Assembly: GCF_012979235.1 (NCBI RefSeq)
Contig: NZ_JAATWC010000006.1
Coordinates: 1 to 64,000, forward strand
Length of the DNA stretch: 64,000 nucleotides
Direction: 5' to 3'
Source of the DNA: Dissulfurirhabdus thermomarina
GTDB lineage: Bacteria; Desulfobacterota; Dissulfuribacteria; Dissulfuribacterales; Dissulfurirhabdaceae
Numbering within the stretch: the stretch's first letter is position 1; every line of letters starts with the position of its first letter. This document shows, in pieces, positions 19,110 through 31,522 of this stretch. The notes beneath the pieces were generated by a model that made no database searches, was not told where the DNA came from, and saw only the letters and a program-made list of their open reading frames with translations. A program made the position numbers and the translations under genes.

Positions 19110-19330
19110 GTCTCACCGCGGCGCCGGGGGCCTCGCCGGCGCCGCCGCGTGGCCGCTTCCGGGTATCCTGGCTCGTGGATCACCCGACCGGCCGCGCCTT
19201 CCCATCCCTTCACCCGGACAGTGGCATCCGCGGCCGTCGTCCCCACTCACAGTGGCGGGCCCGCTCCGGATTTGCACCGGATTCCCCGGCGGCCCCGAAG
19301 GGCCGAAGGCGGCATACGAATTTTCAAATG
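19110..19330 (-). ncRNA. Cobalamin riboswitch aptamer upstream of cbiK
   Basis: On the minus strand, in order, are the conserved blocks of the adenosylcobalamin aptamer: GGGGAATCCGGTGCAAATCC, GAGCGGGCCCGCCACTGTGA (B12 box), GATGCCACTGTCC, GGGAAGGCGC and GAGCCAGGATACC. The block order and spacing fit the Rfam cobalamin class; the limits given are approximate. A terminator follows at 19053-19085 and cbiK begins at 18991. Ligand binding should favour the terminator and shut off cbiK and, by read-through, the porin gene. Confidence 0.95.
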
Positions 19331-29979: not shown

Positions 29980-31005
29980 TCAAAAATCTACATGGCCTCT
30001 TACAGCTTCCAAGGCGGGCCCAATCCTCCTCAAAAGACAATTCCGTGGCGATGGCAACTCATTTATCCCACACCTGAACACGAGGACTCCGTCCAGATTT
30101 TTCCCCAGATCGATAGATGGTTGTTCTCCAACTGCTTGGTGTTCATCAAAAACCCATTCAAGGTCATGCTGAAGTATACAGTTGACCGCCAAAATGTTTG
30201 GATGATGCTTGCTGAGCTTGTTCGAATTTTGCTTGTTTTTAATGAGTTCATGAAGAACGTTTTTTAAATATAAATCAGGTCCTCCAGTTGCGTTACAACT
30301 TGGAACATATTTAGATGGGTCATCTCCCTCAACATAGAGATGAAAAGCTGCATCAGGGACAGGTAATTCTACTGGCTGACAAGTTTTTGACTCCCTTATT
30401 TTCTCTCTCAAGAACTCAGGCTTAATATATGGACGAAACAACTCATCCAAGAATCTATTGAGACCATTCTTGTCATCTGGAATAGATAATTTTGTGCAAG
30501 CCCTATAATCAACTCTTATTCTTGGGTCTATCTTTAAAAACAATTCTTCTATAAAAGAAAGTATTCTAAAAGATTTTCTATAAGTATAACACTCGACAAA
30601 AAAATAAGACTCTCCGGCCGTAACTCTCAAGTCAGGGGCAGGAGAGTTCATCCACGTCACTGTATGCCCTTGGTCGCAAAAAAATTTGGCTACCTGTAAC
30701 TGCCATAAGAGCCCCCAAAAAACATCATAATCGCAGCTCTTGAGTAAATTCTTATTATTTTCCCAGCCTTCCAGCTTGACACCAATCTTAAGCAAATCGT
30801 TAAAAAACTCAAAAAATTCATCTCTCTTCCATGTTCCGAGGCGCCATGCGAGATAATGACAGTAATATGGAGCCGTTTCAGAACAACAGAGAAGGTCTTT
30901 AATGGGATATACCGCTTTTATGAACTCGTAACTATCAAGCCTTTTCTCAACATCCTCCCAGTTGAGATAGTTATGGATCAATTTTTTGTGGGCGGCGGAA
31001 TTCAT
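29980..31005 (-). CDS. Unrecognised protein with possible PD-(D/E)xK nuclease-like core, in AT-rich island
   Basis: 341 residues, not matched to any family I know. Base composition and codons are far more AT-rich than the neighbours, suggesting recent transfer. Residues about 95-145 read as helix, turn, PDLRV, beta strand and VECYTYRK, the layout of a PD-(D/E)xK nuclease: D125 and E138 fit, but the usual lysine two residues after the glutamate is tyrosine, with K144 further on. So it may be a degenerate or variant nuclease; many standalone phage-defence or repair proteins have such cores. No signal peptide or membrane segment. The start is ATG 31003-31005 with only a weak GGGG upstream. It stands alone between the glycosyltransferase and a repeat module. 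Confidence 0.6.
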   Translation of the reverse strand: MNSAAHKKLIHNYLNWEDVEKRLDSYEFIKAVYPIKDLLCCSETAPYYCHYLAWRLGTWKRDEFFEFFNDLLKIGVKLEGWENNKNLLKSCDYDVFWGLLWQLQVAKFFCDQGHTVTWMNSPAPDLRVTAGESYFFVECYTYRKSFRILSFIEELFLKIDPRIRVDYRACTKLSIPDDKNGLNRFLDELFRPYIKPEFLREKIRESKTCQPVELPVPDAAFHLYVEGDDPSKYVPSCNATGGPDLYLKNVLHELIKNKQNSNKLSKHHPNILAVNCILQHDLEWVFDEHQAVGEQPSIDLGKNLDGVLVFRCGINELPSPRNCLLRRIGPALEAVRGHVDF

Positions 31006-31039
31006 TGCCCGATACCCCTAACGCCGCGGGACATGTAAA

Positions 31040-31420
31040 CTATTGAGCTTGGCCCTCTTCCAACCCCGAACCCGCACAACGAATCCAGACTCGACAACTT
31101 TGCTGAGGCATGGAACCGTCGCCGCCTGCGGCGGGCGTTACTTTTCTTTGCGTGCCCAAAGAAAAGTAACCAAAAGAAAAGGCAGCCCACTGTGGAGCCC
31201 CGTCCCCCCGCCAAGGCGGGGCGGAACGGGGTCCCCTCGGCGTCTCGGCGGAGCCGGGCGCGACGAGAACTCGCCCCGCTTCGCGGGGCTCAAACAGTTC
31301 GTCGCGCTTTTTCCGGCTCCGCCATCGACGCCTTCGGCTCCACAGAGGGCAGGGGGCGGCAATAGGCCGAAGGTGTCACGCCTTCCATTCGAGGCCTCTA
31401 CGCAAGAAAACCATCGATCT
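31040..31420. repeat. Palindrome-rich repeat module with TTACTTTTCTTTG hairpin
   Basis: This gene-free stretch holds a perfect 14-bp inverted repeat, GTTACTTTTCTTTG (31137-31150) and CAAAGAAAAGTAAC (31157-31170) with a 6-nt loop, then CAAAAGAAAAGG. Next come a GC hairpin CCCCGCC/GGCGGGG (31206 region), AACTCGCC, a second hairpin GCCCCGC/GCGGGGC (31273-31289) and CTCAAACAGTTCG. I recall the same order, TTACTTTTCTTTG hairpin then AACTCGC..GGCTCAAACA, from intergenic DNA of other GC-rich Proteobacteria, where it produces spurious small ORFs with TFLWARKEK-like ends, as it does here on the minus strand. No transposase is nearby. It is probably a dispersed non-coding repeat; the borders are approximate. 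Confidence 0.55.
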
Positions 31421-31522
31421 CCAGATGGCATACCGAGGGGGAAGTATCTCTCTCCATGAAAGGTTTAATAATTTTAAAATAAAACAAATTCCTTCTCGGC
31501 ACAACCGACGCCGGGGGCACAC

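Follow-up and report, generated by a model that had tools for sequence, protein, structure and literature searches.

The window (the whole 64,000-nucleotide stretch of Dissulfurirhabdus thermomarina DNA analysed here) contains a structured repeat module, well conserved over approximately 31116-31350, next to an AT-rich orphan gene of 341 aa (29980..31005, minus strand; ~38% GC, versus ~70% in the surrounding DNA). An earlier, sequence-only reading had placed a hairpin repeat module at 31040-31420. Its central part was retained, whereas 31040-31115 is weakly conserved between the copies in this genome, and 31350-31420 hardly at all. Two open frames on the minus strand, at 31002..31214 and 31138..31431 in the ORF list, read through the module and are, as had been proposed, spurious. 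The window copy stands alone, as one end within GC-rich DNA; no second end was found. The orphan gene resembles in composition the cassette cargo described below but is located on the module's outer side, and no AT-rich gene was found near the nine other copies in the D. thermomarina genome. Searches of Pfam, PADLOC and the plasmid collection identified no relatives of its product, the predicted structure of which had a pLDDT of 38, too low for interpretation. A short PDLRV..FVECY stretch in this protein recalls PD-(D/E)XK nucleases, by eye only.

All parts of the module are given on the plus strand. A 5' G/C hairpin (P0, 31116..31134), defined by the consensus fold of six own-genome copies, precedes an A/T-rich stem, GTTACTTTTCTTTG / CAAAGAAAAGTAAC (31137..31170), the arms of which (31137-31150 and 31157-31170) form 14 bp with 100% complementarity around a 6-nt loop, CGTGCC, in agreement with the perfect stem originally reported. 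On the basis of sequence and covariation, TGCC in this loop (31153..31156) is the 5' half of a predicted pseudoknot, the 3' half of which is GGCA (31181..31184). The linker CAAAAGAAA (31171..31179) includes AAAAGAAA (31172-31179), which mirrors the purine arm and is predicted from the triad test described below to lie as a third strand along TTTTCTTT (31142-31149); the three predicted triplex strands are 31142-31149, 31158-31165 and 31172-31179. The large domain that follows is closed by an outer stem (31185..31199 with 31336..31350, 14 of 15 positions paired), with a compensatory A-T/C-G change among own-genome copies; its 3' arm marks the approximate end of the conserved module. Inside it lie a G/C hairpin (31200..31231) that varies in sequence from copy to copy, with pairing mostly kept, and a long imperfect inner hairpin (31237..31335) that includes the AACTCGCCCCGCTTCGCGGGGCTCAAACA segment and is cleanly missing from own-genome copy L008. 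The G/C hairpins and an AACTCGC..CTCAAACA segment, with the outer stem, were found in the order originally described. In L029, L040, L041 and other gammaproteobacterial modules, loops of the ATCCATG type are frequent in the large-domain hairpins, corresponding to a CsrA-site-like GGA in a loop on the other (minus) strand; such loops were not seen in own-genome copies.

BLAST identified 10 places, full or partial, in the 2.46-Mb D. thermomarina genome, and similar cores occur in other taxa, so that a single copy with nothing similar elsewhere is excluded. Six of these places, the window copy included, are nearly complete, the other five being 86-91% identical to it. A covariance model returned 11 copies, and a stem pattern allowing up to three mismatches returned six places, with none for the reversed-pattern control. 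A second intergenic repeat family (GATGGCCTCGTAAAAAG...CGCCAAATGCAAGGCGCGAGGATGTCGAGGAATGAGGCGTAC) adjoins the own-genome copies L002, L005, L006, L008 and L010, in their flanks. No match to the module was found in 59 relatives of the same order or phylum, and the core is carried by four of 247 genomes of the phylum, D. thermomarina included (reversed control pattern, 0 hits). The core is also present in Burkholderia, Aeromonas, Pseudoalteromonas and Ilyobacter (Fusobacteriota) records, and an exact scan of one-per-species genomes yielded at least 120 stretches containing it. Carriers among the matches listed include Paraburkholderia, Xanthomonadaceae, Comamonadaceae, Methylomonas, Stutzerimonas, Aeromonas and Pasteurella among the Proteobacteria, as well as Desulfobacterales, Desulfobulbus, Selenomonas and a Clostridia MAG; the number of copies per genome in 28 carriers ranged from 4 to at least 150. 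The core therefore has a patchy spread over several phyla, being present in Proteobacteria and sulfate-reducer MAGs as well as in Firmicutes and Fusobacteriota, which bears out and extends the similarity to unrelated Proteobacteria first suggested. The phage and E. coli collections contained no match, and viral contigs are nearly module-free (four contigs in IMG/VR). No match was obtained in Rfam 15, with either gathering or loose thresholds, no flanking protein common to unrelated taxa was found beside the modules, and the copies have no strong orientation bias with respect to neighbouring genes. A search for the core letters or the module family retrieved nothing relevant from the open-access literature, which is no proof that the family is undescribed.

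The folding energy of the window element, compared with 200 dinucleotide shuffles, gave z values of -6.5 for RNA and of -7.5 and -8.4 for the two DNA strands. The covariance test proposed for the hairpins was performed on 36 diverse cores: the A/T stem covaries, and all four pairs of the pseudoknot show changes on both sides. Over 125 cores, and through many different sequence pairs, the stem loop pairs with the bases just 3' of the A-rich linker over a mean of 4.67 bp, versus 3.35 (sd 0.08) when the downstream parts are shuffled among cores, a difference that, as in the other shuffle tests, is inflated by related sequences. P0 is a plain hairpin in D. thermomarina, whereas in most other taxa the loop of this upstream hairpin pairs with bases 3' of it to form a second pseudoknot (4.16 bp versus 3.10, sd 0.075; 159 sequences).

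The linker mirrors the purine arm in six stem types: CTTTTCTTTG with CAAAAGAAA, CTTTCTTTTG with CAAAGAAAA, CTTTCTTTG with CAAAGAAA, CTTCTCTTTG with CAAGAGAAA, CTTTCTCTTG with CAAAGAGAA, and CTTTCTTTCG with CAAAGAAAG. In 33 aligned cores representing these types, the A.A-T / G.G-C rule was obeyed in 263 of 264 triads, versus 231 (sd 4.4) for shuffled sequences and 189 for a direct repeat. The pattern used to collect the CTTTTCTTTG cores fixed their linker; the variant stems were found free of this constraint, and it is therefore they that carry the weight of the mirror rule. The sequence has the class II purine-motif order, with a pyrimidine arm, a purine arm and a mirror-image purine third strand connected by short loops. 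Pairing between two ends was considered as the source of the mirror rule; it fits CTTTTCTTTG with CTTTCTTTTG, but neither the 15 pairs with CTTTCTTTG nor the 12 identical pairs, and a triplex within each end is therefore preferred. The module thus appears able to fold into a pseudoknot and a three-stranded helix.

A hairpin, a loop pairing downstream and an A-rich third loop of stem length are also the topology of an RNA pseudoknot, and the predicted RNA fold is strong. The module might accordingly be a structured non-coding RNA acting in the transcript as an H-type pseudoknot, with the A-rich third loop packed along the first stem; a conserved RNA was one of the two possibilities originally raised. 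In every stem variant, however, linker G lies opposite C-G and linker A opposite T-A, in conformity with the rule for purine-motif triplexes; RNA is reported to be unable to form these (Holder et al. 2015, PMC4666352), and this favours a DNA element. Given these linker rules, the lack of strong orientation relative to genes and the lack of an Rfam match, the RNA interpretation is disfavoured; the organisation in inverted pairs with gene cargo is also at odds with it, and we consider it unlikely.

Adjacent cores in other genomes are convergent in 49 cases, divergent in six and tandem in one. Forty-three convergent pairs are spaced by 0.3-0.7 kb, and the stems of the two ends differ in 31 of these 43, at loci retrieved by means of a single stem type. 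Pairs in Burkholderia sp. Ac-20365 and its relatives make up palindromic elements, the outer inverted repeat of which is TCGCTGGCATCCGCG. A MITE-like feature, terminal inverted repeats that enclose no transposase gene, is present in other genomes. One Paraburkholderia element occupies the identical site in five genomes, indicating that movement is infrequent there. An exact search for two core types in four Methylomonas genomes gave, by our count, 28 convergent versus ~3 divergent pairs within 4 kb. The intervals of more than 0.9 kb between convergent Methylomonas ends (n = 23, one of them counted on two overlapping loci) have an interior GC content of 0.415, versus 0.526 outside (P = 2e-7), and mostly contain one ORF each, of no known family. 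The recognised cargo comprises a PDC-S19 candidate defence protein (DUF3644), Schlafen AlbA_2, DUF4062, DUF3825 and NA37 proteins, and an ATPase related to GajA/Old; a few intervals contain ordinary host genes (the nif region, L249) or IS200-type transposases. Nearly all Methylomonas ends (48 of 50) have a tip in common, GTGTCGCT..GCGAC, versus a rate of 4% in shuffled sequence. Judged from their sequence, the convergent module pairs of Methylomonas delimit cassettes, most of which hold one AT-rich gene. Of the two possibilities originally raised, that of a mobile element is the best match, but the non-coding part of that suggestion does not hold throughout, given these gene-carrying cassettes.

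The ureC-ureE site differs between genomes, with cargo absent from one and different in three others. In G310, it contains a 2.1-kb segment consisting of tip, module, a 437-aa gene, module and tip; this segment is lacking in G319 (M. koyamae), whereas G328 has a 579-aa ORF between ends of the same kind and G308 the start of a third cargo. The G319 site may be a deletion scar, because it retains one tip hairpin. Between ureA and ureB, one genome has a gap of 10 bp, and others have ~350-370 bp containing a single module. Instead of a mobile end, the module might be a triplex-forming replication staller provoking local rearrangement, with the flanked genes brought in by ordinary recombination at unstable sites. 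In E. coli, the TM/BoxC motifs, which belong to this triplex class, have been linked to instability of the genome around them, and none was found within a mobile element (PMC4666352); the own-genome copies L008 and L010 display a clean, slippage-like internal loss of hairpins. Undirected repair would nevertheless not readily generate a common tip at nearly all Methylomonas ends, nor the fixed convergent geometry and single-gene intervals, and this explanation seems to us improbable.

No transposase or recombinase linked to the module ends was found, and neither a target-site duplication nor a related autonomous element was detected. We considered the RAYTs, IS200-type tyrosine transposases, as partners that might mobilise the module in trans as a REP/TIR repeat. 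RAYT genes lie between convergent modules at several Methylomonas loci, inverted module pairs resemble REPINs, and TIR-flanked RAYTs are known (PMC3733652). However, the RAYTs near Methylomonas modules have canonical GTAG repeats of their own at four of five loci, and 19 PF01797 genes from 14 other carriers all lack a module within 1.5 kb. PF01797 is missing from seven of 21 carriers and no such gene was found in D. thermomarina. A GT[AG]G foot beside an imperfect palindrome is absent from the window and consensus sequences, and no cognate RAYT flanked by the module was identified. RAYTs were therefore rejected as partners, and mobilisation by them is very unlikely. IS200-type (Y1_Tnp) genes were observed between Methylomonas module pairs at L080, L147, L198, L217 and L262; most have their own GTAG repeats and correspond to REPtrons nested in or beside cassettes.

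Like REP and REPIN elements and REPtrons, the module is a short intergenic palindromic DNA with many copies and inverted doublets, and is probably non-autonomous (PMC3733652, PMC6006769, PMC2817692). It differs from REP/REPIN elements in having neither a GTAG foot nor a cognate RAYT, in its predicted pseudoknot and triplex, in its larger unit and in the gene cargo between its ends; unlike the TIRs of TIRtrons (PMC3733652), it does not, as a rule, flank a TIRYT gene. The closest known kind is that of the BoxC/PIT intrastrand-triplex repeats (BoxC, PIT or TM_ECO; PMC4666352), and we call the module an A/T-rich, pseudoknotted, cargo-bearing form that is new here. Shared features are the class II purine-motif order given above, an intergenic location with no strand bias and a patchy spread, and close inverted pairs combining type A with type B (PMC4666352). 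TM_ECO is, however, G/C-rich (CCCTCNCCC...), ~36 nt long and found in proteobacterial genomes with no link to mobile elements (PMC4666352), whereas the module has an A/T-rich predicted triplex, a covarying pseudoknot, a second hairpin or pseudoknot, a domain of 150-200 nt, a common tip (in Methylomonas), a wider range of phyla and gene cargo. The window sequence does not match the TM_ECO/BoxC consensus, CCCTCNCCC N3-6 GGGNGAGGG N3 GGGNGAGGG. In six of eight occurrences within 0.9 Mb of module loci, a BoxC/TM_ECO motif precedes the module core by 106-203 bp, with both on one strand (L041, L099, L105, L132, L146 and L152), which suggests linked insertion of two triplex-repeat families.

Overall, we regard the module as probably one end of a non-autonomous mobile DNA element. 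Judged from its sequence, the single strand of an end can form a hairpin with its loop paired downstream as a pseudoknot, while the linker lines up with the stem, in register, to serve as a purine-motif third strand; the large hairpin domain comes next. In other genomes, two inverted, facing ends bound a gene-free element of 0.3-0.7 kb or a cassette of 1-4 kb, usually with one AT-rich gene. An enzyme supplied in trans would recognise the folded single strand of the ends and move the segment, its action on single-stranded DNA being suggested by the fold. Solo ends, such as the window copy, may be remnants, or may have arisen through one-ended insertion or internal deletion. The covariation of the pseudoknot, the mirror linker, the patchy occurrence in several phyla, the convergent pairs, the AT-rich interiors, the common tip and the differences at the ure sites make such a mobile end the likely reading; the lack of a linked transposase or recombinase, of a detected target-site duplication and of a second end at the window copy weighs against it. 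We propose, more tentatively, a distinct class of mobile gene cassettes, present in several phyla, in which two inverted ends, recognised by a trans-acting enzyme as single strands folded into a pseudoknot and a purine-motif triplex, would carry single AT-rich genes, including candidate anti-phage genes. Integron gene cassettes, too, are single AT-rich, mostly unknown ORFs at sites folding as single-stranded DNA. The module cassettes share with them this type of ORF and sites foldable as a single strand, but their gene lies between two inverted ends, and they are dispersed in the genome and form no direct-repeat arrays.

The module thus looks to mark a little-known kind of mobile DNA. Covarying DNA triplexes in combination with a pseudoknot would be an unusual example of non-B DNA that is visibly selected, and the paired ends would provide a handle for finding single-gene cassettes and their mobilising enzyme. 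The same logic, a mirror-repeat third strand and end pairs that mix types A and B, may account for the BoxC/PIT repeats, the role of which has so far been open. Elsewhere in the window, a cobalamin riboswitch (E = 1e-20) was identified at 19161-19287 on the minus strand.
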